Part shown: one piece after another, positions 3,367-39,400 of the stretch
Numbering within the stretch: position 1 is the first letter of the stretch
Layout: each line of letters opens with the position of its first letter
Assembly: GCA_028277405.1 (NCBI GenBank)
Contig: JANQGH010000017.1
Span: 1 to 64,000, forward strand
Direction of reading: 5' to 3'
Length of the DNA stretch: 64,000 bases
DNA from: Alphaproteobacteria bacterium
GTDB taxonomy: Bacteria; Pseudomonadota; Alphaproteobacteria; DSM-16000; Inquilinaceae
Notes under the pieces: model-generated
Databases searched by the model: none
Seen by the model: only the letters and a program-made list of their open reading frames with translations
What the model was told of the DNA's origin: nothing
Program-made: the position numbers and the translations under genes

Positions 3367-3449
3367 GGCATCGAACACTAGCCGCCGACTGACGCCTTGG
3401 GAAGGGGGGCCTTCTGCGTCTGGTTGAAAACTTCGTCGCTTTGGTGAAG

Positions 3450-3772
3450 ACGGGGCGTTCTGTTGCTAGGTGCCCCACCCCCCACCTGACACGGCTAGGC
3501 GTCAGGGATTAAGTTCAGGTTGTTTGAACCGCATTAAGCGGCCGCACGAACCTCAGCAACGTTGTCGTTGGCAACTATTGCAATTGGCCCGATAACGGCG
3601 GAACCATGCCGAGCGAAAACAACATCTTTACCACGCGCGTCGATCCTGTTTCGCCCCCTTAGACCCAGTCGATTGCTCGACCGGGAAGGATTTGGTGGAG
3701 GCGCCGGGTACTGCCCCCGGGTCCGCTACGCTTATTCCATGCTGCGTTTATCGCCATAGTCGGTTGCCCGAC
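3450..3772 (-). ncRNA. ssrA: Two-piece (circularly permuted) tmRNA
   Basis: Alphaproteobacterial permuted tmRNA, which rescues stalled ribosomes and tags nascent proteins. Read leftward, the acceptor piece (about 3772-3693) comes first and ends in an encoded CCA at 3693-3695. An intervening segment (3692-3659) follows, then the coding piece from GGGGGCG at 3658 to about 3450. The 7-bp acceptor stem GGGGGCG/CGCCTCC forms between the two pieces with one G-U pair. A GGATCGACG element, close to the tmRNA consensus, follows the 5' end. The tag reading frame (3572-3534) starts at GCC and encodes ANDNVAEVRAAA then TAA. The conserved ACCTAGCAACAGAA element sits in a GGGGC/GCCCC hairpin near the end. 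Outer boundaries are estimates. Confidence 0.93.
3534..3572 (-). other. tmRNA tag-peptide reading frame
   Basis: Resume codon GCC at 3572-3570, then codons for ANDNVAEVRAAA and a TAA stop at 3536-3534. The upstream context AATAGTT and the ANDN start match alphaproteobacterial tags, where the ANDN-type part is bound by SspB and the C-terminal alanines by ClpX. The last four residues are RAAA rather than the more usual hydrophobic residue plus AA. Confidence 0.9.
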
Positions 3773-3778
3773 GCTGCT

Positions 3779-3784
3779 AATATA
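3779..3784 (-). promoter_or_regulatory. Candidate -10 box of the tmRNA gene
   Basis: TATATT on the minus strand, 6 nt upstream of the first predicted nucleotide of the permuted precursor (about 3772). The precursor would open with a GTCGG-GCAA-CCGAC hairpin (3772-3759) carrying a GNRA-type loop. No good -35 box was seen at 16-18 bp. Confidence 0.4.
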
Positions 3785-3885
3785 GGCGGCCTTGCGCCGA
3801 TTGCATAGGGCGCGGAATGCCGTTCGCTTAAACCGCGCCGCGGGATACACTTCCGTCCCATCCCGATTCTCGACGGCCGACGCCC

Positions 3886-4972: not shown

Positions 4973-5665
4973 TCATAATCGTTCGAAAATGAAGAAATCG
5001 GCGAACGAGGTGTTGTCAGGGTTCTTGGTGTCGAATGGAAACCGGTTGGGTAGATGGGCAGTTAGCCGGAAATCCTTGCGTTTTTGGTCCACCCAATCGG
5101 TGAATCTTCGGTGCCGCACATGCTCAGCTTCGTGTTGTTCGTTCTTGTTCGATGTGTAAACGATCACAAAGCGGTTCGCGGCATCATAAAGCGTTTCCAT
5201 ATAGTTTTCATAAGTGGCGTCTTCGACGAGGTGATAGATAACGTCCAACGACAGCGCCAGATCGGCTTTTTGTCCTTCGTACGCCGCGAGAGTAACGAAG
5301 GTCTTGCTAGTGTCTTCAGCAAATCGTGCTTGACAGTCGAGCACAGCCTTCTTCGAAACATCGACGCCTGTATAAGCCGGGTACTTCGCATAGTTCAACT
5401 GATTGCCATCGCCTGAGCCAAACTCGATAACGCTGTCGATTTCATGCTGCGCAACAAAATCGTTCAGCACCTCTGCTTTGTACAAGGCAAGCCGACCGTA
5501 ACTGCCTGCACCGGAGTTACCGCCATCCAAATACCGTTGTTCCCAGTAGTCACTTGAAGTTGTGAAGTCGAATTTTCCTCGCTGTGAGAATTGCTTGTAT
5601 ATGGACCGCGCAATTGGCTCTAACGGCGTGCCGATCAGCGTGTTTTTGATCCGATTCTTAAGCAT
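4973..5665 (-). CDS. Class I SAM-dependent methyltransferase
   Basis: A 230-residue protein with a Rossmann-type methyltransferase core. Motif I is VIEFGSGDGNQL (around 79-90), an acidic position follows in TGVDVSKKAVLD, and LALSLDVIYHLVED is the post-II motif. The substrate is unknown. The N-terminal FDFTTSSDYWEQRYLDGG resembles methyltransferases of polysaccharide or natural-product clusters, but no such cluster is adjacent. The gene and its flanks (about 4.83-5.88 kb) are visibly AT-richer than neighbouring genes and use many A/T-ending codons, which suggests recent transfer. An AGAGGC Shine-Dalgarno precedes the ATG. Confidence 0.82.
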   Translation of the reverse strand: MLKNRIKNTLIGTPLEPIARSIYKQFSQRGKFDFTTSSDYWEQRYLDGGNSGAGSYGRLALYKAEVLNDFVAQHEIDSVIEFGSGDGNQLNYAKYPAYTGVDVSKKAVLDCQARFAEDTSKTFVTLAAYEGQKADLALSLDVIYHLVEDATYENYMETLYDAANRFVIVYTSNKNEQHEAEHVRHRRFTDWVDQKRKDFRLTAHLPNRFPFDTKNPDNTSFADFFIFERL

Positions 5666-5886: not shown

Positions 5887-7107
5887 TTAAGGTGTCGACC
5901 CGTCCACCCGGCGCACCACCAACGCCGCGTTCAATCCGCCGAAGGCGAAGCTGTTGGATAGGGCCGTGCGGATTTCCATCGGCCGCGCCTCGTTCGGCGC
6001 GTAGTCCAGATCGCATTCCGGGTCCGGCTCGGTGAAGTTGGCCGTGGGCGGCGCGAGGTTCTCCCGCATTCCCATGATCGTGGCGATCATCTCCAAGGCG
6101 CCTGAGGCGCCCAGGCAGTGGCCGTGCATGCTTTTGGTCGCGGAGATCACCAGCCTATCGGCGTGATCGCCGAAGACCTGGCGGATCGCCCGTGTCTCGT
6201 TGACGTCGTTGAGCTGCGTTCCCGTGCCGTGGGCGCTGATATAGTCGATCTCCTCCGGCGCCACGCCGCCATCGCTCAAGGCCCGTTCCATCGACATGAT
6301 CGCGCCGTCGGCGGCCGGCTGCACCAGATCGTCGGCGTCGGCACAGAAGCCGAAGCCCAGCAGCTCGGCCAGGATGGGAACGCCGCGTTGCTCGGCCGAC
6401 TCGAAGGTTTCCAGGACCAGGATGCCGGCGCCCTCACCGACGATCATGCCCTTGCGGTCGCGGCTGAACGGGCGGCAAGTGTCCGGCGCCACTACGCGCA
6501 GCGCCTCCCAGGCCTTCATCGCGCCGATCGAAAAGCTGGTTTCCGATCCGCCGGCCAAGACGATGCGCGACTGGCCGGTGCGCAGCATCATCATGGCGAC
6601 GCCAAGCGCGTGGTTGCTGGTGGAACACGCGCTTGAGACCGAAAAGCACGCCCCCCTGATGCCGAGATCCATACTGATCTGGCTCGCCGCCGCGCTGACC
6701 ATGAAGCGCGGTATCGTCAACGGGTGCAGCCGCGCATTGCGGGCGTAGAGCCTGTGGTAGGCCTCGTCCAGCGTAGTGAGGCCGGCGGCCCCCGTGCCGG
6801 CCACGACCGCCGTTTCCGTCGCCAGCGCGCCGGACAGGTCCAGGGCGGCGCTGGCCACCGCCTCGCGCGCCGCGATGATCGAGAATTGCGAGAACCGGTC
6901 GAGCATGTTGGCCTGCCGATTGGCGAAATGGTCGGCCGGCTGATAGTCGCGCACCTCCGCCGCCATCTTGTAGGTGAGATGGTCGTAGAGTTCCGGGCTG
7001 ACCTGACCGATGCCCGGTCGCCCGGCCTTGGCGTTCGACCAGAAGGTCGGAACGTCGTGTCCCATGGCGCTGATTTGGCCGAAGCCTGTTACTGCAATTC
7101 TGGTCAT
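5887..7107 (-). CDS. Beta-ketoacyl-ACP synthase (FabF/NodE-like), second ketosynthase of the acyl locus
   Basis: Condensing enzyme of 406 residues that would elongate an ACP-bound acyl chain with malonyl-ACP. The Cys-His-His triad is complete: SSACSTSNHA with Cys161, HGTGT, and KSMHGH. It also carries the GEGAG and NSFAFGGLNA landmarks. It is closer to the KS at 11772-12983 (shared SAAASQ, DTCRPF, RKGM, PPTANF and PDPECDLDY) than to a housekeeping FabF, so the two look like paralogues with related jobs. It is divergent from the LptF-type gene. A 60-codon frame ends 3 bp upstream. Substrate is inferred from neighbours only. Confidence 0.9.
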   Translation of the reverse strand: MTRIAVTGFGQISAMGHDVPTFWSNAKAGRPGIGQVSPELYDHLTYKMAAEVRDYQPADHFANRQANMLDRFSQFSIIAAREAVASAALDLSGALATETAVVAGTGAAGLTTLDEAYHRLYARNARLHPLTIPRFMVSAAASQISMDLGIRGACFSVSSACSTSNHALGVAMMMLRTGQSRIVLAGGSETSFSIGAMKAWEALRVVAPDTCRPFSRDRKGMIVGEGAGILVLETFESAEQRGVPILAELLGFGFCADADDLVQPAADGAIMSMERALSDGGVAPEEIDYISAHGTGTQLNDVNETRAIRQVFGDHADRLVISATKSMHGHCLGASGALEMIATIMGMRENLAPPTANFTEPDPECDLDYAPNEARPMEIRTALSNSFAFGGLNAALVVRRVDGSTP

Positions 7108-7110
7108 GGC

Positions 7111-7293
7111 CTATCGAGCGGGAAGAGCAAGCTTGTGTCCGGGGTGGTTGACGGCGGGAACCTCGATCGCGCCGGGCGACCGGCGCTCGCGTTTTAGCAC
7201 GGCACGGGGGGACGGCAAGGGCGATGCCCGATACTTGATGTCAATCAGGCGGTTGGCCAACCGCTCGACCAGTAATGTGCCCAGGCCGATCAT
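7111..7293 (-). CDS. Possible small protein upstream of ketosynthase
   Basis: A 60-codon frame from ATG (7293) ending 3 bp before the ketosynthase start. The N-terminal part reads MIGLGTLLVERLANRLIDIK, a plausible amphipathic helix, and the rest is basic and proline-rich. There is no clear Shine-Dalgarno and I recognise no family. Its tight spacing to the ketosynthase is the only argument that it is real. It could equally be a chance frame in a GC-rich promoter region. Confidence 0.22.
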   Translation of the reverse strand: MIGLGTLLVERLANRLIDIKYRASPLPSPRAVLKRERRSPGAIEVPAVNHPGHKLALPAR

Positions 7294-7382
7294 GCATTGC
7301 GCAAAGCTGTGATATGGCGGAGACGGCCGGCTGTGCTACATGGACCGGGAACTTGGAAGGCAAGGGCCTTGGCGGCGCGTTG

Positions 7383-8534
7383 ATGCTTCGCACACGACTG
7401 TACATTTTGAAGATGCTGGCCAAGTCGCTGGTCATCACCTCGCTGGTGGCGACGGCGGTGGCTTGCCTAGTCTATTCCCAGCGCTATCTGGACGAAATCG
7501 TCGAACGGTCGTTTCCGGTGATCATGTTCTTCGAGATCATCGTGACGCTGATGCCATTCCTGCTTGTCGTCGCGATCCCGGTCACGCTGTCGATCAGCAT
7601 CGTGTTCATCTACAACAAGCTGATCACGGACAGCGAGATCCTGGTCTTGCGCGCCGCGGGGGTCAGCCAGTTCGGCCTTGCGACGCCGGCGATCTGGCTG
7701 GCGCTGTTGGCGACGGGCCTGTCCTATCTGATGACGCTCTATTTCGTGCCGCTGTCCTATGAGCGCTTCAAGGACATCGAGACCATGGTGCGCAGCGGGC
7801 AGGTCGAGATCTCCCTGCCGGCGCGGACGTTCAACACGTTGGAGCGGAACCTGACCGTCTATTACAGCGAAGAGCTTGAGGACGGCACGATGCAGTCGAT
7901 TCTGGTGCAGGACAACCGCAATCGGGCGGAGCCGATTACGGTGATCGCCGAGAGCGCCAGGGTTTCGCCGGAGGATGGCGAGTTTCGGATCTTCTTTTGG
8001 AACGGGGTCCTGCAACGGTTCGATCGCGAACAGTCTCAAATCACGTCCATCAGCTTCGATCAGTATGTCCTGACCTTGAACATCCTCGCGAACGGCCGAT
8101 CGCTGGATGACCGGCCGCTGGAACCAAGAGAGATGGGCCTGGCCCAGGTCATCGCCGAGCAAAGCAATCCGGACATCGGCGAACGGCAGCGCAACGAGGC
8201 GACGGTCGAGGTCTATACCAGGCTGGTCAGCCCGCTCCTGTGCTTCACCGTGGCCATGATTGCCGTGACGGTCATGTTCGTCGGCGAACAGGTGCGCACG
8301 CGTTTTGCCAAACGCGTTTTTGCCGTCGGTGTGTGCATTGCCGCCCTGCTGTTGCTGTTTCAGTGGCTGATGGCCCTGACGCGCGGCAACCCGATGTTTG
8401 GGCCCTTACTGCCGGTCGCGGCGATCTTGCCGGGCGTCATTGCCACCATTGTTCTGTGGCTCAGCAACCGCCGCGCGCCCCGACCGTGGAGAGCCCGCCG
8501 CCGGGACCGGCTGGTGCAAGCCTCCGGCGCCTGA
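7383..8534 (+). CDS. LptF/LptG-family (YjgP/YjgQ) permease, lone copy
   Basis: Inner-membrane permease of the lipopolysaccharide export family, 383 residues from the ATG at 7383 (MLRTRLYILKMLAKS). Family layout is intact: two N-terminal transmembrane segments with EILVLRAAGVS between them, a periplasmic jellyroll-like region (about 130-270), then three C-terminal helices including MFGPLLPVAAILPGVIATIVLWL. In canonical LPS export LptF and LptG work as a pair with LptB and LptC and are normally adjacent; here only one is present. Its 3' end overlaps the convergent acyltransferase gene by 129 bp. The context suggests export of a modified lipid rather than the bulk LPS route, but that is inference. 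Confidence 0.88.
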   Translation: MLRTRLYILKMLAKSLVITSLVATAVACLVYSQRYLDEIVERSFPVIMFFEIIVTLMPFLLVVAIPVTLSISIVFIYNKLITDSEILVLRAAGVSQFGLATPAIWLALLATGLSYLMTLYFVPLSYERFKDIETMVRSGQVEISLPARTFNTLERNLTVYYSEELEDGTMQSILVQDNRNRAEPITVIAESARVSPEDGEFRIFFWNGVLQRFDREQSQITSISFDQYVLTLNILANGRSLDDRPLEPREMGLAQVIAEQSNPDIGERQRNEATVEVYTRLVSPLLCFTVAMIAVTVMFVGEQVRTRFAKRVFAVGVCIAALLLLFQWLMALTRGNPMFGPLLPVAAILPGVIATIVLWLSNRRAPRPWRARRRDRLVQASGA

Positions 8535-9440
8535 GGTTGTCGCCGGCTGCTGGGGCCGGCCCCAGAACTGCAGCCAGACCCATTGTTCCGGCGTTTCGCG
8601 CACCCACCGCTCCGCGATTGCGTCCACCCGGTCCGCCAGCCACGCCTCGTCGGCATCCGGGTCGCCTGTGTTGCGCGGCTCGATCGGGTCATCCAGGACA
8701 AGCTCGAAGCGGGCACCGTTGAGGCGCTTCATGCGGGCGGGTAAGACCACGCAAGGCTCGCGCTGGCTGATTCGGATGACGCTGTGCAGGGCCGACGACC
8801 GCATTCTCCGGTGGCCGAAACTGGGCACCATGATCCAACCGGACAGGCGCTCGTCCATCAACATGCCGAGGCGCGCGCCAGGCAGGGCGAAATGCGTCAG
8901 CGCCTCGCGCGTGCCGGTCGTGTTCTTGGCAAACTGGTTGACGCCGGCGCCGTTACGGATCCGGGTCAGAATGTCGGAGATGTAGCGGTTGTTCGGCGGC
9001 TTGAAAAAGACCGGCGTCGGCGCCCCCCAGCCGGCCGACATGATCGGCGCCAGCTCGAAGTGCGCCAGGTGCAGGCTGACCATCAGGATGCGCTTGCCTT
9101 CGGAGATCGCGTCCAGGGACGGCTGAATGTTGACGACATCGACGCGGCCGGACGGGATCATCCGGTGCAACACGGCATATTCGGCGATGATGCGGCCAAG
9201 ATTCTCCCAGGCCAGCCGCTCCAGCCGATCCAACTCCGGTCCGTCCGCCTCAGGTCTCAGATAGGCCAGGTTCGCGCGCAGGCGGTCCCGCTTGTGGCCG
9301 GCGAACCGGCGCGCGATGCGCCCCAGCGCCGCGCCGAAGCCGGACACAGCGCTTATGGGCCAGGGCCGCAAGGCGGCGAGGAACAGTCGCAGCCCTGCCC
9401 CCTCAAGCCATTCGCGTCGCGGATTGCGTTTTGCCGCCAC
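8406..9440 (-). CDS. LpxL/HtrB-family acyltransferase (second copy)
   Basis: Late lipid A acyltransferase-like protein of 344 residues. The catalytic HX4E motif is SLHLAHFE (His124, Glu129), with FFKPPNNRYISDILTRIR and MLMDERLSGWIMVPSFG as the other family blocks and ETPEQWVWLQFWGRP near the end. It starts 2 bp after the preceding paralogue stops, so the two are probably co-transcribed. The last 43 codons (8406-8534) run antisense through the 3' end of the LptF-type gene and are low-complexity, so this tail may be a recent extension. Acyl donor and acceptor are unknown; the neighbouring ACP is the obvious donor candidate. Confidence 0.88.
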   Translation of the reverse strand: MAAKRNPRREWLEGAGLRLFLAALRPWPISAVSGFGAALGRIARRFAGHKRDRLRANLAYLRPEADGPELDRLERLAWENLGRIIAEYAVLHRMIPSGRVDVVNIQPSLDAISEGKRILMVSLHLAHFELAPIMSAGWGAPTPVFFKPPNNRYISDILTRIRNGAGVNQFAKNTTGTREALTHFALPGARLGMLMDERLSGWIMVPSFGHRRMRSSALHSVIRISQREPCVVLPARMKRLNGARFELVLDDPIEPRNTGDPDADEAWLADRVDAIAERWVRETPEQWVWLQFWGRPQQPATTSGAGGLHQPVPAAGSPRSGRAAVAEPQNNGGNDARQDRRDRQ

Positions 9441-9442
9441 GC

Positions 9443-10339
9443 CTAGAGGTCCCAGCGCCTATGGGGCCACAGCCACTGTTCGGGCGTGTCGCGAAGCCAG
9501 CGCTCCAGCACCTCGTTCATGCGCTCCAGCAGCCAGTCGACATCGGCCTCCTGGTCGCCGGAAGGGGTTCGTTCGATCGGCGGCTCGCAGATCACGTCGA
9601 AGCGGGCGCCGTCGGTGCGCTTGACCCGGACGGGGATGATCTTGGCGCCGTAGCGCAGGGCCATCTCCGCCGCTGTCGGTGCGGTTTTGACCGGATGGCC
9701 GAAAAAGGGCACGAGCTTGCCGCGCAGGCTGCGCTGGTCGATCAACATCGCCAGGTTGCCGCCGGTCGCCAAAACCTTCATGGCACTGCGAATCGATTCG
9801 GTGCCGCGCGGCAGCAAGGTCATGCCGCAATCGACCCTCAGCCCCCTGATGATACGGTCGACGAAGCGGTTGTTGGGCGGCCGGTAGATGCCGGTCATGG
9901 TCATGCCGTGCCGTTTGGCGACGATCGGCGAGATCTCCCAATGGCCGATATGGCCGCTGACCAGCAACAGCGGGTGCTTGCCATAAAGCTCGCGGATGTA
10001 GTCGTCGCCGTAGATCGTGATGCGTTCGCTGTTCGCGATGCGTCCCAACGAGGCATACTCCGTGGCCACGCGCCCCAGATGGCCCCACATGTCGCGCATG
10101 ATCTGGTGGCGTTCCTCGTCGGATTTCTCCGGAAACGCGATCGCCAGGTTCGACAGCGACTTCTCGGTCGGCTTGCGGATGCGCGGGCCGATCAGCCGGC
10201 CCAGCCGGTTGCCGAGGCCCGACGCCCAGTCCACCGGCAGCAGCCCCAGCGCCTTGAACGTCAGGTACATCGGCAGTGCCTGAAGGGGGTGCCAGATCCA
10301 ATGCTGTCGCCAGGCCTGCCGGGGTGTGTACCGGCTCAT
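9443..10339 (-). CDS. LpxL/HtrB-family acyltransferase (first copy)
   Basis: A 298-residue membrane-associated acyltransferase of the lipid A secondary acylation family. An N-terminal hydrophobic segment (about 20-40) anchors it. The HX4E motif is SGHIGHWE (His130, Glu135), followed by YRPPNNRFVDRIIRGLR and MLIDQRSLRGKLVPFFGHP, the blocks that bind the acyl donor and the phospho-sugar acceptor in the family. The C-terminus has the typical DTPEQWLWPHRRW. It overlaps the P450 gene by 4 nt (ATGA), strong evidence for a joint operon. Confidence 0.92.
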   Translation of the reverse strand: MSRYTPRQAWRQHWIWHPLQALPMYLTFKALGLLPVDWASGLGNRLGRLIGPRIRKPTEKSLSNLAIAFPEKSDEERHQIMRDMWGHLGRVATEYASLGRIANSERITIYGDDYIRELYGKHPLLLVSGHIGHWEISPIVAKRHGMTMTGIYRPPNNRFVDRIIRGLRVDCGMTLLPRGTESIRSAMKVLATGGNLAMLIDQRSLRGKLVPFFGHPVKTAPTAAEMALRYGAKIIPVRVKRTDGARFDVICEPPIERTPSGDQEADVDWLLERMNEVLERWLRDTPEQWLWPHRRWDL

Positions 10340-11739
10340 CTGCGTTCGATGGTCATCGGCAGGCCGTGGCGGGGGCGCAAGGTCAGACGCGATTGCGGCT
10401 CCACCGGATGGCCTGGCCGCAGCCTCAGTCTGTATCGCTGGCCCAAGGTGGCGAGGATCAACACCGCTTCGGTGCGCGCGAACGACGCCCCGATACAGGT
10501 CCGGGGGCCGGCGCCAAAGGGCACGTAGGCCAGCTTGTGGCGTGGCTTGGGCGGCTCCATGCCCGCCGGCGGTTCTACCTTCTCATAGTAGAAGCGATCC
10601 GGGTCGAAATGGTCCGGGTTGCGCCACAGGCCGCGATGCCGGTGCAATAGCCATGGGCAGACGGCGACGAAGCTGCCCGCCGGTATCGTCTTGCCGGCGA
10701 TCTTGTCCTCTGCCCTGGCCTTGCGGGTCAGGATCGGGATCGGCGGATAGAGCCGCATCGCCTCCTCGAACACCGACAGCACGTAGGGCAGGCGGGCGAC
10801 GTCCGCGTAGGCGGGTTGCCGGCCCTCCAGGACGCGATCGATTTCGTCGTGAAACCGCTTCTCGACCGATGGCGCCTGCGACAGCAGATACCAGGTCCAG
10901 GCCAGCGCGTTGGCCGTGGTTTCGTGGCCGGCAAAGAAGAACACCGACAGCTCGTCGCGGATTTCGTCATGCGGCCGGTCGCCGCCCGTGTCCTCGTCGG
11001 GTACGGCCAACAGGATCGACAGCAGGTCCTGGTACTCGTCCTCGTGACCCCGGCGGGCGTGGATCATCGCGTCCAGGACCTGGTTGATGCGTGCCAACGC
11101 GCGGCGGGCCCTCGGGCGCGGCCGCTTGGGCAGCCAGGTCGGCAGCCCCATGAACTCATCGAACTCCACCTGCCGCAGGGCGTCGATGTATTCGGTGAAG
11201 CTCTGGTAGATGACCTCCGCCTTGTCACCGAGATCGGACGAAAACATGGTGCGGCAAATCACCTCGGCCGTGACCTGGGCCATCTGCTCGCCCATCTCCA
11301 GCTCGATCTGGCCGCCGCCCTGATCGATCTCCTGGCCCCAGCGCTCGGCCTGTTCGGCGGCCGTCGCCGCCATGGTCTCGGAGAACTGCTTGATGCGCGA
11401 GACGTGGAATGCCGGGGTCGCGTTGCGGCGCTGGCGCCGCCAGGTGCCGCCATCGCTCAACAGCATGGAGTTGCCGATCAGCGGTCCCAGCGCGTTCTTC
11501 ATCTCGTCGGACTTGGGATAGTTCTCGACGTTGGAGAACAGCACGTGGCGCACGGTGCGCGGGCTGTTGGCGATGAACAGCCAGCGCAGAAAGAACTTCT
11601 GCGCCAGGAAGCTGGCGAAATAGGCCTCCTCGGGCCAGACCGCGATGACGTTACGCCTGGCCTGCAGGATCGCCTTGATCGGCGATAGCCGCTTGCTCAG
11701 GCGCGGCGGCATCGCCGGGATGAAGGTATCGGTGGTCAT
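10336..11739 (-). CDS. Cytochrome P450 (fatty-acid-hydroxylase type)
   Basis: Haem-thiolate mono-oxygenase, 467 residues. The I-helix oxygen-activation motif FAGHETTAN, the K-helix EAMR (ExxR) in VFEEAMRLYPPIPIL, and the haem loop FGAGPRTCIGASFA with Cys415 are all intact. Length, the WRRQRRNATPAFH C-helix block and the ExxR context resemble the CYP4/CYP102-like group that oxidises fatty acids rather than the short soluble camphor type. No reductase or ferredoxin gene is adjacent. It sits between a ketosynthase and two lipid acyltransferases and is overlapped by the latter, so the likely substrate is an acyl chain on ACP or lipid; this is inference. Confidence 0.93.
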   Translation of the reverse strand: MTTDTFIPAMPPRLSKRLSPIKAILQARRNVIAVWPEEAYFASFLAQKFFLRWLFIANSPRTVRHVLFSNVENYPKSDEMKNALGPLIGNSMLLSDGGTWRRQRRNATPAFHVSRIKQFSETMAATAAEQAERWGQEIDQGGGQIELEMGEQMAQVTAEVICRTMFSSDLGDKAEVIYQSFTEYIDALRQVEFDEFMGLPTWLPKRPRPRARRALARINQVLDAMIHARRGHEDEYQDLLSILLAVPDEDTGGDRPHDEIRDELSVFFFAGHETTANALAWTWYLLSQAPSVEKRFHDEIDRVLEGRQPAYADVARLPYVLSVFEEAMRLYPPIPILTRKARAEDKIAGKTIPAGSFVAVCPWLLHRHRGLWRNPDHFDPDRFYYEKVEPPAGMEPPKPRHKLAYVPFGAGPRTCIGASFARTEAVLILATLGQRYRLRLRPGHPVEPQSRLTLRPRHGLPMTIERR

Positions 11740-11771: not shown

Positions 11772-12983
11772 TCAATGCAGCCGGCGAAAGGCCAGGACCG
11801 CATTCAGCCCGCCGAACGCGAACGAGTTGGACAGCGCCGTGTCGATCGTCATGCTGCGCGCGGCGTTCGGAATGTAGTCCAGGTCGCATTCGGGATCGGC
11901 CATGGTGAAGTTCGCGGTCGGCGGCGCGATCTGGTCCGCGATCGCACGTGCCGTGATCACGGCCTCCAGCGCGCCGGCGGCGCCCAGACCGTGGCCATGC
12001 ATCGATTTGGTCGACGATACCGCAACCTGGCTCGCCGCCTCGCCGAGCGCCAGGTGGATGGCCTTGGTTTCAGCGACGTCGTTCTGCCCCGTGCCGGTGC
12101 CATGGGCGTTGATGTAGTGCAGACCCTCCGGCGCTATCTCGGCTTCGTCCAACGCTTGTCGGATGGCACGCGCGGCGCCCTCGGCCGAGGGGTCGGTCAA
12201 GCTGCCGGCGTCGGACGTCATGCCCATGCCGGCGATCTCGGCATAGATGCGGGCACCCCTGGCCTGGGCATCCTCCAGCCGCTCCAGCACCAAGACGCCG
12301 GCACCTTCGCCCAGCACCATGCCCTTGCGGTCAATGCAAAAGGGCCGGCAGGTGTCGACGGACAAAACGCGCAAGGCTTGCCAGCCGAGCATCGAGCCGA
12401 AGACGAGGCAGGCCTCGCTGCCGCCCGTGACCGCGGCGCGCGCCCGCCCGGACTTGATCATCCAGTAGGCTTCGCCGATGGCGTGATTGGCGGACGAACA
12501 GGCGCTGGTCACGCCGAAAGCGGGGCCGTTTAGCCCGTATTCCATCGTCACCTGGCTGGCCGCGGCGCTGGGCATCAGCTTAGGAATGCTCATCGGCGGT
12601 GTGCGGATCTTGCCCTGGCCAAAGATCCGCTCACTGTCCTCGTTGATCGTCTTGGCGCCGCCGATGCCGGTGCCGATGATCACCGCGGTATCGTCGTGCA
12701 GCCCATGATCGAATGTCAGGCCGCTGTCGGCGATGGCCTCGCGCGCCGCGACCAGGGCGTATTGCGAATAGGGGTCGATCACCGCCAGCTTTACGGGGTC
12801 GAAGTGTTTCTCCGCGTCGAAACCCTTGACCTCGGCGGCAACGTGGATCTTCAGCTTCTCCGGCGGGATCGCCGTGATCGGCCCGATACCGGACACCCCT
12901 TCCACCGCTGAGCGCCAATGGCTGTTGGCATCATGGCCCAGCGCGGAAATGCACCCAAGCCCTGTGATGGCGACACGATGCAT
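11772..12983 (-). CDS. Beta-ketoacyl-ACP synthase (FabF/NodE-like), first ketosynthase of the acyl locus
   Basis: Condensing enzyme of 403 residues with a full catalytic set: Cys162 in VTSACSSANHA, HGTGT and KSMHGH, plus GEGAG and NSFAFGGLNA. The start MHRVAITGLGCISALG is typical. It lies 43 bp after the ACP gene and 32 bp before the P450, on the same strand. Because both ketosynthases of this locus keep their active-site cysteine, neither looks like a chain-length-factor partner. It is probably dedicated to elongating a chain on the adjacent ACP. Confidence 0.92.
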   Translation of the reverse strand: MHRVAITGLGCISALGHDANSHWRSAVEGVSGIGPITAIPPEKLKIHVAAEVKGFDAEKHFDPVKLAVIDPYSQYALVAAREAIADSGLTFDHGLHDDTAVIIGTGIGGAKTINEDSERIFGQGKIRTPPMSIPKLMPSAAASQVTMEYGLNGPAFGVTSACSSANHAIGEAYWMIKSGRARAAVTGGSEACLVFGSMLGWQALRVLSVDTCRPFCIDRKGMVLGEGAGVLVLERLEDAQARGARIYAEIAGMGMTSDAGSLTDPSAEGAARAIRQALDEAEIAPEGLHYINAHGTGTGQNDVAETKAIHLALGEAASQVAVSSTKSMHGHGLGAAGALEAVITARAIADQIAPPTANFTMADPECDLDYIPNAARSMTIDTALSNSFAFGGLNAVLAFRRLH

Positions 12984-13026: not shown

Positions 13027-13293
13027 TCAGGCGGCGTTCTTTTCGTTGATCAGCCGCTGCACGCCGTCCACGACATCCTGTAGGGTGTCCAGCTTCATGG
13101 CGTCGCGGTCCTGCGGCACATCGATGTCGAATTCGTCCTCGATGGCAAAGATGATCTCGACCAGATCGATGGACTCAATCTCGATATCTTCCAGGCGATC
13201 GCTCAGCGACAGTCCCGCGGGATCGACCCGCCGTTGATTGGCGACGATTTCGACGATCTTGCTTTCGACGGTTTTGGTGTCGACTTCACTCAC
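13027..13293 (-). CDS. Acyl carrier protein (specialised)
   Basis: An 88-residue acidic ACP. The phosphopantetheine site is Ser41 in IEIESIDLVEIIFAIEDEF, slightly different from the DSLDxVE of housekeeping AcpP, and the protein is longer than usual AcpP. It is the first gene of the leftward ACP-KS-P450-acyltransferase-acyltransferase operon. By analogy with AcpXL of rhizobia it may carry an unusual long or modified chain for transfer to lipid A, but sequence identity to AcpXL is not evident by eye. Confidence 0.93.
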   Translation of the reverse strand: MSEVDTKTVESKIVEIVANQRRVDPAGLSLSDRLEDIEIESIDLVEIIFAIEDEFDIDVPQDRDAMKLDTLQDVVDGVQRLINEKNAA

Positions 13294-34124: not shown

Positions 34125-35807
34125 ATGGCGGATCGGGTATCGAACGTAACCATTGTCGGCGGCGGTACGGCAGGCTGGCTGACGGCCTGCATCGTCCATA
34201 CCTTTCTTAATCGCCGCACCGATCAACGGCCGGTCAAGGTGACATTGATCGAATCACCGAACACCCCGACCATCGGTGTCGGCGAGGCGACCGTGCCCGG
34301 CATGGTCCGGCTTTTGAGCCAGCTCAAGATCGACGAGTCCCGGTTCTTCCGCGAATGCAACAGCTCGTTCAAGCTGGGCGTTCGCTTTCAGGATTGGAAC
34401 CGCTCGAAGAAAGGCACACCACAGAGCTTCGTGCACCCGTTTCAGGCCGCGCCCTACATCGACGGCTTTCCGGTCGCCTATTATTACCACGCCTTTGCCA
34501 AGGGCGACTTCGTCGACGCCACCCTGCCGCAGATGACGGCAATCGACAATCTGAAGGCGCCGCGTGAGATGGGCGCGAAGGACTATGAATCGAGCATGTC
34601 CTACGCCTATCACCTCGACGCCGGAAAGTTTGCCGGCTTCCTGCGCGATGTGTGCGTCGAGCGCGGCGTGGAGCACATTCTGGACGATCTGCAGGACGTT
34701 GAGGTCGGCGAGGATGGCCGCATCACGTCCCTGCAGTTCGAACGCACGGGGCGGCGCGAGGTCGAACTCGTCATCGATTGCACCGGCTTCCGCGGCGTGA
34801 TCATGCGCCAAGCCTTGAAGGAGCCCAGAATCCCCTGGACCAACCATCTGCTGAACGATCGCGCCTTGGCCGTGCAGATCGACCATGACGACCAAACCCA
34901 CCTGGAACCGTTCACGCGCTCAACGGCGCTCAGCGCCGGTTGGGTCTGGAACGTGCCGCTCTACCACCGGATCGGTACCGGCTATGTCTACTCCAGCGCG
35001 TTTAAGACCGAAGACCAGGCGATGGAGGAATTTCTGGCCCATCTCGGCCCCCGCGCCCAGGGCAAGACGCCGCGCGGCATCAAGATGGAGGTCGGGCGGA
35101 CGGAGCGCAGTTGGGTCGGCAACTGCATCGCCGTCGGGCTGTCGGGCGGGTTTATCGAGCCGCTGGAATCGACCGCGATCTATCTGATCGAGATGTCGGC
35201 CCGCTGGATCGTCGACCTGTTCCCCGATGCGGGCATCTCCGAACCCCTGGCGCGCCGCTATAACCAGCGGATGGAGCGGCTGTACGCCGAAGTGCGCGAC
35301 TTCGTCATGCTGCACTATCTGCTATCCAACCGGACCGGCGACTATTGGGAGGCGGCGCGCAACGAGGTCGACGTGTCGGATTGGCTGAAGAACAATCTGG
35401 ACATCTGGCAATACACCTTGCCCTACGCCCTCGACGTTGCCGGCAACAGCCTGTTCAACGAGTGGAACTTCATCTTCGTGCTGATGGGCAAGCGGTTCTA
35501 CGCCGATCGCGAACTGTCGATGGACAGCCTGCTACAGCAAGACCGCTGGCGCGAATACAGCGCGACGATCGACAGGAAGAAACAGGCCGTCCTGACCAAA
35601 CTTCCGACCCATTACGAGCTCTTGGCGAAGGTTCACGGCGACCTGGCCGAAAAGCCCAAGCAAACCGCCAAGGGCGAGGGTGCCGACGAACTGCTCTCGG
35701 CCTTTCTTTCTGCGCAGCCTTCGTTCACCGGATCAACCACGGCGGCTGTAACCCCCACCGGTTTCGACCCCGGCCGGTTCAAGCGGGGGCCAACCGTTAA
35801 ACACTAA
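34125..35807 (+). CDS. Flavin-dependent tryptophan-halogenase-family enzyme
   Basis: A 560-residue protein with all PrnA/RebH-type landmarks. The FAD motif GGGTAGW (12-18) is present, with Lys83 in SFKLGVRFQDW at the catalytic lysine position and the diagnostic WxWxIP-type motif WVWNVP (273-278). FIEPLEST has Glu348 at the catalytic glutamate position. Such enzymes use FADH2, oxygen and chloride or bromide to halogenate an aromatic substrate. No flavin reductase, peptide synthetase or polyketide gene lies nearby, so the substrate could be free tryptophan, a peptide or another indole. It stands alone between the sugar operon and cfa. Confidence 0.9.
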   Translation: MADRVSNVTIVGGGTAGWLTACIVHTFLNRRTDQRPVKVTLIESPNTPTIGVGEATVPGMVRLLSQLKIDESRFFRECNSSFKLGVRFQDWNRSKKGTPQSFVHPFQAAPYIDGFPVAYYYHAFAKGDFVDATLPQMTAIDNLKAPREMGAKDYESSMSYAYHLDAGKFAGFLRDVCVERGVEHILDDLQDVEVGEDGRITSLQFERTGRREVELVIDCTGFRGVIMRQALKEPRIPWTNHLLNDRALAVQIDHDDQTHLEPFTRSTALSAGWVWNVPLYHRIGTGYVYSSAFKTEDQAMEEFLAHLGPRAQGKTPRGIKMEVGRTERSWVGNCIAVGLSGGFIEPLESTAIYLIEMSARWIVDLFPDAGISEPLARRYNQRMERLYAEVRDFVMLHYLLSNRTGDYWEAARNEVDVSDWLKNNLDIWQYTLPYALDVAGNSLFNEWNFIFVLMGKRFYADRELSMDSLLQQDRWREYSATIDRKKQAVLTKLPTHYELLAKVHGDLAEKPKQTAKGEGADELLSAFLSAQPSFTGSTTAAVTPTGFDPGRFKRGPTVKH

Positions 35808-37072: not shown

Positions 37073-37200
37073 GGTTCTTGTCTCGACCGTTTCCTTTCAA
37101 GCGCGAGTCGGGATGTAAATGATGCCGCGTCGTTGAGAAAAACGAAAGCAAAACGCTTGCCCGTCCAAAAAGCCGTCTGGCTAGTGGTTCGACAAATCAG

Positions 37201-37230
37201 TTGCCTCACGCCGGCAAATCCGCATATTAA
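37201..37230 (+). promoter_or_regulatory. Candidate leuA leader promoter
   Basis: -35 TTGCCT at 37201-37206, an 18-bp spacer, and -10 TATTAA at 37225-37230. This would start an mRNA with a leader of roughly 300 nt before leuA, enough for an attenuator. Confidence 0.5.
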
Positions 37231-37283
37231 GGCGCCAGTAGACGTGCTGTGGCGCGTCCCAGCGAAGAGAAAGCTGCTCCAGA

Positions 37284-37403
37284 ATGGGTCGTGAACGCCA
37301 GATGACGAAGCTGATTATCGGCCGGCCGGGGATTGCCCGGGCCGACGCCGGCCTGCTTCTTCTCGGCCTCGACCTGCGACTTAGCCGCCCCCGGGCGCGC
37401 TGA
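37284..37403 (+). CDS. leuL: Leucine-rich leader peptide of leuA (attenuator peptide)
   Basis: A 39-codon frame from the ATG at 37284, or 33 codons from the in-frame ATG at 37302, ending TGA at 37401-37403. Its second half reads LLLLGLDLRL, seven leucines in ten residues, encoded by a mix of CTG, CTT and CTC. A purine-rich GAAGAGAAAG lies about 11 nt before the first ATG. The position, about 140 bp upstream of leuA, and the codon run are what a transcription-attenuation leader sensing leucyl-tRNA should look like. GC-rich segments downstream can pair (CCCCCGGG with CCCGGGGG), but a textbook terminator with a T-run was not identified. Confidence 0.75.
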   Translation: MGRERQMTKLIIGRPGIARADAGLLLLGLDLRLSRPRAR

Positions 37404-37543
37404 CCACCGGCCCACGCCTGACACATCGAGACAGCCTGGGTCGGATCGCCCCGGGGGATTATGGTGACTGACCACACGTCGGCGATTTCGCCTGCGCCCG
37501 TCAGAAACAACGTCTCGCCAATCAGGCTTGAAGGACGCCCGTG

Positions 37544-39106
37544 ATGAGTAGCGACAAAGACCATATCAGGATATTCGACACCACCTTGCGCGACGGCGAG
37601 CAGTCGCCGGGCGCCTCGATGAACCTCGAGGAAAAGGTGGCCATCGCCAAATTGCTGGAGGAGATGGGCGTCGACATCATCGAGGCCGGCTTCCCGATCG
37701 CGTCGAACGGCGATTTCGAGGCGGTTCAGCACATCGCGCGGACGGTGAAGACCTCTGTGGTGGCCGGCTTGGCCCGTGCGGCGCAACGGGATATCGACCG
37801 CGCGGCGGAGGCGTTGCGTGACGCCGAACGGCCGCGCATCCACACCTTCATCTCCACCAGCCCGCTGCACATGAAGCACAAGCTGCAGATGGAGCCGACG
37901 GAGGTGCTGGACGCGATCACCGACAGTGTCAGCCGGGCGCGCAACTACACCGACGATGTCGAATGGAGCCCGGAAGACGGCAGCCGGACCGAGCCGGACT
38001 TTCTCTGCCGCGCGGTCGAACTGGCCATCCGGGCAGGCGCCACGACGATCAACATCCCCGACACGGTCGGCTATGCCACGCCGGAGGATTATGCCGGCAT
38101 CTTCCGCATGGTCCGCGAACGGGTGCCGGGGGCGGAGGATGTCATCCTGTCGGCCCATACGCACAATGATCTCGGTTTGGCCGTTGCCAATGCGCTGGCG
38201 GCCGTCAATGCCGGCGTGCGCCAGATCGAATGTACGATCAATGGCATCGGCGAACGGGCGGGCAACGCCTCGCTGGAAGAGGTCGTCATGGCTGTGCGCA
38301 CGCGGCCCGACGCCTACCCCTACATGCACAAGATCCAGACCGAGCTGATCATGCGGGCCTCGCGCCTGCTGGCGAGCACGATCGGTTTTCAGGTGCAGCC
38401 GAACAAGGCCATCGTCGGTGCCAACGCCTTTGCGCACGAGGCGGGCATTCATCAGGACGGCATGCTGAAACATGCCGGTACCTACGAGATCATGACGCCG
38501 GAATCGGTCGGACTGGTCCGCTCGACCCTGGTCATGGGCAAGCATTCCGGGCGCAACGCCTTCCGCAGCAAACTCGTCGAGCTGGGCTTCGATGACATCG
38601 GCGACAACGCGTTCCAGGATGCGTTCCAGCGGTTCAAGGCCTTGGCCGACCATAAGAAGGACATCTTCGACGAGGACATCGTCGCCCTGGTCGATGACCA
38701 GTTGGCCACCGCCAACGAGCGCATCAAGTTCGTATCGCTGGGCGTCATGGCCGGGTCGATCGGCAAGCAGTCGGCGCAGATCGTCCTGGAGATCGATGGC
38801 GAGACGAAATGGTCGCAAACCGGCGGGTCCGGCCCGGTGGACGCGATTTTCAACGCGATTACCGAACTGGTGCCTCACCAGGCCAACCTGCAGCTCTATC
38901 AGGTGCACGCGGTGACCGGCGGCACCGACGCCCAGGCCGAGGTCACGGTGCGGCTTGAGGAGGATGGTAAGAGCGTGAACGGGCTGGGCGCGGATCACGA
39001 CACGTTGGTCGCCTCGGCGCGGGCCTACATCCACGCCCTGAACAAGCTGATGGTCAAGCGCCAGAAGTCCGCTCCGCCCGAGGTCGATACTCAGCTCACG
39101 GCTTGA
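37544..39106 (+). CDS. leuA: 2-isopropylmalate synthase
   Basis: First committed step of leucine synthesis, joining acetyl-CoA and 2-ketoisovalerate. It has 520 residues from the ATG at 37544, with AAGGA upstream; a GTG one codon earlier is possible. Catalytic domain landmarks are IFDTTLRDGEQSPGASM, HTHNDLGLAVANAL with metal-binding histidines, and INGIGERAGNASLEE. The C-terminal 130 or so residues form the LeuA regulatory domain for leucine feedback inhibition. A 27-codon frame (37461-37544) ends in TGATG overlap with the start and may aid coupling. Confidence 0.96.
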   Translation: MSSDKDHIRIFDTTLRDGEQSPGASMNLEEKVAIAKLLEEMGVDIIEAGFPIASNGDFEAVQHIARTVKTSVVAGLARAAQRDIDRAAEALRDAERPRIHTFISTSPLHMKHKLQMEPTEVLDAITDSVSRARNYTDDVEWSPEDGSRTEPDFLCRAVELAIRAGATTINIPDTVGYATPEDYAGIFRMVRERVPGAEDVILSAHTHNDLGLAVANALAAVNAGVRQIECTINGIGERAGNASLEEVVMAVRTRPDAYPYMHKIQTELIMRASRLLASTIGFQVQPNKAIVGANAFAHEAGIHQDGMLKHAGTYEIMTPESVGLVRSTLVMGKHSGRNAFRSKLVELGFDDIGDNAFQDAFQRFKALADHKKDIFDEDIVALVDDQLATANERIKFVSLGVMAGSIGKQSAQIVLEIDGETKWSQTGGSGPVDAIFNAITELVPHQANLQLYQVHAVTGGTDAQAEVTVRLEEDGKSVNGLGADHDTLVASARAYIHALNKLMVKRQKSAPPEVDTQLTA

Positions 39107-39131
39107 ATCTCGGACAGGTGGCTGGTTCGTG

Positions 39132-39168
39132 GGGCCGAGGGTCGCAAGACCTTCGGCCCTTGGTTCTT
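39132..39168 (+). terminator. Terminator of leuA
   Basis: A 12-bp stem GGGCCGAGGGTC/GACCTTCGGCCC (one G-U pair) closed by a GCAA tetraloop, followed by the T-rich TTGGTTCTTGG. It lies 26 bp after the leuA stop. Confidence 0.85.
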
Positions 39169-39224
39169 GGGGACATAGGCGTCTCCGCGCTTGTGGCGGG
39201 GTGATCGCGCCTATTCGGGCGGGC

Positions 39225-39400
39225 ATGGAGTTTGCGATGCGACAACCCTTGAATGCCCGCGTCCTCGCGGTCGTCGCGGCGGGAAGCGCGTTGGAATGGT
39301 ACGATTTCGCGATCTACGCCTTTTCCTTATGGCCCTGTCGGTCGTCGGCCTCGTCGCGCTCATCCTCACGCCGGAGACCAAGGGCCGCGCGCTCAACTAA
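39225..39400 (+). pseudogene. Remnant of an MHS-family MFS transporter
   Basis: The first 33 codons from the ATG at 39225 read like the start of a metabolite:H+ symporter, including AAGSALEWYDFAIYAF, the first transmembrane helix signature. Near 39325 the sequence jumps, in another frame, to ALSVVGLVALILTPETKGRALN, the typical last helix and C-terminus of the same family, ending TAA at 39398. About 400 internal codons are missing and the frames disagree, so this is an internal deletion scar and not a functional gene. Confidence 0.85.

Follow-up and report, generated by a model that had tools for sequence, protein, structure and literature searches.

A cytochrome P450 gene overlapping a lipid A-type acyltransferase gene in an alphaproteobacterial operon, and a candidate route to oxidised surface lipids

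The operon and its surroundings

The window, by which we mean the whole stretch of 64,000 nucleotides analysed here, carried a cytochrome P450 gene that a sequence-only reading had described as translationally coupled to a lipid A acyltransferase gene. The open reading frame was real and intact, and it lay on the minus strand, which that reading had not stated. The coupled pair was present too, but it was part of a larger unit: five minus-strand genes followed one another in the order acyl carrier protein (ACP), ketosynthase (KAS1), P450, LpxL1 and LpxL2, with gaps of 43, 32, -4 and 2 nt (Table 1), and from this layout they read as a single operon. The negative gap was the common ATGA of the P450 stop and the LpxL1 start, found as previously read, and LpxL2 started 2 nt past the LpxL1 stop. 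The ATGA overlap argues for co-expression of the two proteins, but it is no argument for the stoichiometric expression and the common substrate that had also been drawn from it.

A gene for an LPS export permease of the LptF/LptG family was convergent with the operon, the ends of the reading frames overlapping by 129 bp. A second FabF-like synthase gene (KAS2), which had no ACP of its own, is probably related to the operon. KAS2 was followed on its strand by a gene for a methyltransferase-fold protein (4973-5665). Elsewhere in the window we observed a tmRNA gene (3443-3785, tag ANDNVAEVRAAA), a tryptophan-halogenase family gene outside the operon region (34125-35807, Pfam 449 bits), and a minus-strand reading frame of 681 residues with no Pfam match (37181-39226). 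The PHROGs search returned no match.

Table 1. Features of the operon and its flanks (window positions)
Feature	Position	Strand	Evidence
Acyl carrier protein, dedicated	13027..13293	-	PF00550 36.9 bits vs 20.8; Ser41 in ESIDLV
FabF-like beta-ketoacyl-ACP synthase (KAS1)	11772..12983	-	Cys-His-His motifs; profile matches; KAS tree
Cytochrome P450, 467 aa	10336..11739	-	PF00067; motifs; model; nearest structure CYP184A1
ATGA stop/start overlap, P450/LpxL1	10336..10339	-	sequence
LpxL1, lipid A late acyltransferase	9443..10339	-	PF03279 176 bits; HX4E 130-135; tree
LpxL2, second LpxL-family acyltransferase	8406..9440	-	PF03279 72 bits; HX4E 124-129; tree
LptF/LptG-family LPS export permease	7275..8534	+	PF03739 167 bits
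Second FabF-like synthase (KAS2)	5887..7107	-	profile matches, motifs, KAS tree

Links of the operon to lipid A acylation

The acyl chains of lipid A set outer-membrane packing and immune recognition. LpxL1 and LpxL2 were the only PF03279 matches in the draft genome, which was 97.7% complete, and the HX4E motif was kept in LpxL1 (H130/E135), in LpxL2 and in eight other aligned sequences. In a tree built from 57 proteins, LpxL1 shared a clade (support 97) with E. coli LpxL and LpxM, with LpxXL of rhizobia and with LpxLs from its own family, adjoining the LpxL of the metagenome-assembled genome CAJQQJ01 (locus L142) and that of G011, a genome of the same family (99). The PF03279 match, the HX4[DE] motif and the clade with characterised members place LpxL1 among the LpxL/LpxM late acyltransferases, with scores under the NCBIfam equivalog cut-offs. 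LpxL2 stood on a long branch at the base of the clade of P450-partner LpxLs (97). The single LpxD match of the genome was on contig C8, between reading frames that by eye resembled Skp and FabZ, and of two LptF/G homologues one was in the window and the other on contig C52. The presence of LpxD and LptF/G homologues makes lipid A synthesis by this organism very probable. LpxL1 belongs with the genuine lipid A acyltransferases, and the genome search yielded just one other gene of its kind; on these grounds the P450 is tied to lipid A acylation.

The operon ACP scored 27 bits against the AcpXL profile (PRK06508, cut-off 83), and the search of the genome with that profile gave no match above the cut-off. 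Housekeeping AcpP and FabF were encoded on C52. The operon ACP was therefore neither AcpXL nor the housekeeping AcpP. On the ketosynthase tree, KAS1 stood apart from rhizobial FabF1XL and FabF2XL and from the housekeeping FabF of the genome. In 20 other alphaproteobacterial loci with a gene related to KAS1, that gene came after an LpxD-like hexapeptide gene 14 times, and in nearly all of these an ACP gene separated the two. The same LpxD-like, ACP, KAS order was found in G011 and G013, and in G011 a single contig carried LpxL1, LpxL2, (LptF), the LpxD-like gene, ACP and KAS. The LpxD-like profile kept the AHNV motif, which presumably surrounds the catalytic His; the window itself had no LpxD-like gene. 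Since the relatives of KAS1 follow LpxD-like genes, this type of ACP and KAS is tied to lipid A-type acylation. The combination of an LpxD-like gene, an ACP and a FabF-like synthase was a recurrent alphaproteobacterial module in its own right (L267-L286; L122, L139), of which we know of no description.

The P450 and the recurrence of its pairing

The P450 scored 267 bits against PF00067 (cut-off 22.8). Its motifs were intact, as the sequence-only reading had held (AGHETT from residue 270, EAMR at 326-329, and the haem-loop Cys415), and the AGxET I-helix, ExxR, haem-loop Cys and P450 fold place it in the cytochrome P450 superfamily. In the comparison of its AlphaFold model (mean pLDDT 93.2) with solved structures, rows less than 1 Z apart were counted as tied; Foldseek and VIA both ranked CYP184A1 of Streptomyces avermitilis first. 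CYP184A1, for which an oleic-acid complex exists (7wzl/7wzm), was nearest by sequence (200 bits) as well as by fold (Z 41.7, rmsd 2.5 over 427), the two proteins differing in that they shared only about 30% identity. We know of no LpxL context for CYP184A1, and the literature searched, which had partial coverage, contained no mention of it. CYP97, CYP4B1, CYP102 and CYP46A1 came next in the sequence and fold rankings, and the top NCBIfam profiles were pentalenene and albaflavenone oxidases, both far below cut-off (206 bits against 800 and 194 against 700).

The P450 had been called fatty-acid-type. This is plausible from the model, as the nearest structure is of a fatty-acid-binding kind; the label is weakened by the CYP97 carotenoid hydroxylases that come next and by the terpene oxidases among the sub-cut-off profiles. 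A common fold by itself shows no function, and with hydroxylases of carotenoids and sterols among the nearest structures, this one gives no proof of chain specificity. Comparison with CYP102 was made through the structure and sequence rankings; membership in CYP102 of the BM3 type was rejected, as the reading frame ended at 467 residues without a fused reductase and the next gene started inside its stop. At the position of the haem-binding I-helix Glu of CYP4 (E310 of CYP4B1), the window P450 had Ala270, like the Ala of the E310A mutant (6c93), the residue correspondence being provisional. The best 60 PDB matches included no CYP153. A second, divergent P450 of the same genome (G000:C36:9433-9873; L002, L141) was on a very long tree branch.

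P450 homologues were collected from 385 genomes of the class and from a scan of a species-genome collection, the scan being run with five aligned P450s that included, besides that of the window, three LpxL-paired ones. Gene calls and start codons in the compared loci were simple reading-frame calls, and one genome may count twice among the loci (L053 and L147 were identical). Among the matches listed, an LpxL-family gene was directly downstream in 33 of 125 P450s, the window included, a share that is no unbiased frequency because the query alignment included LpxL-paired P450s. Thirty-one of these 33 fell, among the matches listed, in one 47-row clade (SH-aLRT 100) that spanned Rhizobium, Roseomonas, Halomonas, Methylobacterium, Methylovulum and others, and thus alpha- and gammaproteobacteria. 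The LpxL-pairing label changed 11 times on the P450 tree of the listed matches, against a mean of 29 when shuffled, and 15 of the 32 listed pairs outside the window had an in-frame four-base overlap (ATGA or GTGA). On a tree with PDB outgroups, the window P450 was sister to that of L142 (97/86), where the order was ACP, KAS, P450, LpxL; all sampled pairs fell in one larger clade (99/99), with unpaired P450s also inside it. The window and L142 P450s stood beside the 47-row clade, and by order and overlap the window genes form a P450-LpxL pair of the same kind. One record titled as a Klebsiella pneumoniae metagenome-assembled genome (L177, CAMDWI010000001) had a P450 that grouped with alphaproteobacterial ones and is probably mislabelled.

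Since the order of P450 then LpxL recurs in at least 32 other loci, with overlap in 15 of 32, the coupling of the two genes is beyond chance, and a lone coincidence was ruled out. The unpaired P450s nearest the paired clade adjoined other genes (beta-lactamase-like, ATP-grasp), so a pattern of an oxidase beside any neighbour is no explanation for the pairing.

The P450-LpxL pairs were found in two contexts. In most of the other genomes, the partner acyltransferase belonged to an LpxL clade separate from that of LpxL1. Among the matches listed, 6 of the 48 loci in the P450 clade, and 0 of the 72 outside it, had at least two genes from a set comprising PKS, AONS-like, KpsS-like and SDR genes nearby. 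Where the pair stood next to RkpA-like PKS genes (Halomonas, Rhizobium, Devosiaceae, Beijerinckiaceae), it resembled that of the window in having a related P450 followed by an LpxL-family gene, often with overlap, but its LpxL was of another clade and PKS or AONS genes took the place of the ACP and KAS genes of the window. Such neighbours suggest a capsule-type lipid at those loci. In the window and in L142, by contrast, the P450 gene had a lipid A-type LpxL gene and genes for an ACP and a KAS as its neighbours. As the partner LpxLs in most other genomes are of a different clade, the coupling of P450 and LpxL1 in the window could have a separate origin; the pairing may go back to one ancient association in which the partner was replaced, or to two. 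Directly upstream of a Halomonas pair (locus L160) we observed, at 6068-8796 of that locus, a CysN/CysC-type fusion gene (GTPase and APS kinase) and an inositol-monophosphatase-family gene, a hint of sulfate activation near that pair.

A predicted pathway to an oxidised acyl chain

Taken from gene content and order, the operon would make a special, oxidised secondary acyl chain and attach it to lipid A, a reading to which we gave a probability of roughly 0.55. Carriage and extension of the chain would fall to the dedicated ACP and to KAS1, perhaps helped by KAS2. Oxygen would be inserted by the P450, in the simplest case to give a hydroxyl, either on the ACP or just after the chain was released from it. 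LpxL1 would then pass the product to the Kdo2-lipid A precursor, and LpxL2 perhaps serves a second position. The favoured order is that the chain is oxidised on the ACP and afterwards transferred to lipid A; we infer this order, the substrate, and the chemistry and position of the oxidation. A broader proposal, held more tentatively and at somewhat less than even odds, is a widespread undescribed proteobacterial module in which the P450 oxidises a chain and the coupled LpxL-family partner attaches it to a surface lipid, with the module built into lipid A biosynthesis in the window lineage.

The sequence-only reading had regarded a P450 as foreign to the standard lipid A pathway, and this was borne out, none being present in the published accounts of lipid A and VLCFA pathways that we examined. 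LpxO and other lipid A hydroxylases would also leave lipid A with an oxidised acyl chain, but LpxO belongs to the Fe/2-oxoglutarate dioxygenases and not to the P450s. In rhizobia, the lipid A VLCFA cluster has the order acpXL-fabZXL-fabF2XL-fabF1XL-adhlA2XL-lpxXL, and in Agrobacterium fabrum the oxidoreductase gene adhlA2XL overlaps lpxXL by 4 bp (PMC11901934). The window operon was similar in having a dedicated ACP and ketosynthase and then an oxidoreductase gene with a 4-bp overlap onto a lipid A acyltransferase gene. It differed in that its ACP and ketosynthases were non-orthologous, its oxidoreductase was a P450 and it had two LpxL genes, and no fabZ or adh gene was present among the window reading frames searched around the operon. 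Membership in the AcpXL/LpxXL system was therefore rejected, given the ACP score, the non-orthologous KAS1 and KAS2 and the lack of fabZXL. By analogy, the operon most likely works like the rhizobial pathway, not as a member of it.

It is unlikely that the operon serves an acceptor other than lipid A and so makes another surface glycolipid, for instance the lipid anchor of a capsule. Such a glycolipid is the probable product of those P450-LpxL pairs that have RkpA-like PKS genes next to them. In favour of this reading, clusters of the Rkp/wcb type, which combine a PKS with capsule export genes, have been described (PMC3908369), the PKS-associated set was confined to the P450 clade in the counts above, and LpxL2 of the window was nearer to the partner-type LpxLs. 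Around the window operon, however, the reading frames at 3-21 kb included no type I PKS, AONS-like or KpsS-like gene, so it is not an RkpA-type capsule cluster. LpxL1 is of the lipid A type, with no other late acyltransferase found for lipid A, and the ACP-KAS module is linked to LpxD-like genes in relatives.

Less probable still is a specific form of the lipid A reading, in which the chain is an omega-1-hydroxylated VLCFA like the 25-OH and 27-OH chains of rhizobia and the P450 is the terminal hydroxylase. The shared logic of dedicated ACP, ketosynthase and overlapping oxidoreductase and acyltransferase genes is consistent with it, as are the two ketosynthase genes close together, and the rhizobial literature searched named no enzyme for the penultimate hydroxyl and no hydroxylase for the cluster. 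The ACP far under the AcpXL cut-off, the ketosynthases that are not FabF1XL or FabF2XL orthologues and the cluster without FabZ and adh genes all stand against it, and the sequence does not reveal how long the chain would be or where it would be oxidised.

It is improbable that the P450 is no more than co-transcribed with the operon and acts on something unrelated (a terpenoid, sterol or xenobiotic): the closeness of CYP97 and CYP46A1 in the fold ranking and the terpene oxidases heading the NCBIfam profiles favour this reading, but those profiles were far below cut-off and the pairing with LpxL-family genes, in part with overlaps, recurs across two proteobacterial classes among the matches listed. 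A hopanoid-lipid A conjugate as the P450 target was rejected as unlikely, since no hopene cyclase match was found in the genome.

The literature searched contained no description of a P450-LpxL pair and no co-occurrence of "cytochrome P450" with "lauroyl acyltransferase", which is weak evidence of absence, as most subscription journals lay outside its coverage; the novelty of this P450-LpxL lipid A operon holds relative to that partial literature. The recurrence of a P450 with an acyltransferase in many bacteria suggests an undescribed way to make oxidised cell-surface fatty acids. Coupled to LpxL-family acyltransferases in many genera, the P450 offers a testable candidate route to oxidised surface lipids, and the pair predicts the genomes whose lipids are worth mass spectrometry.
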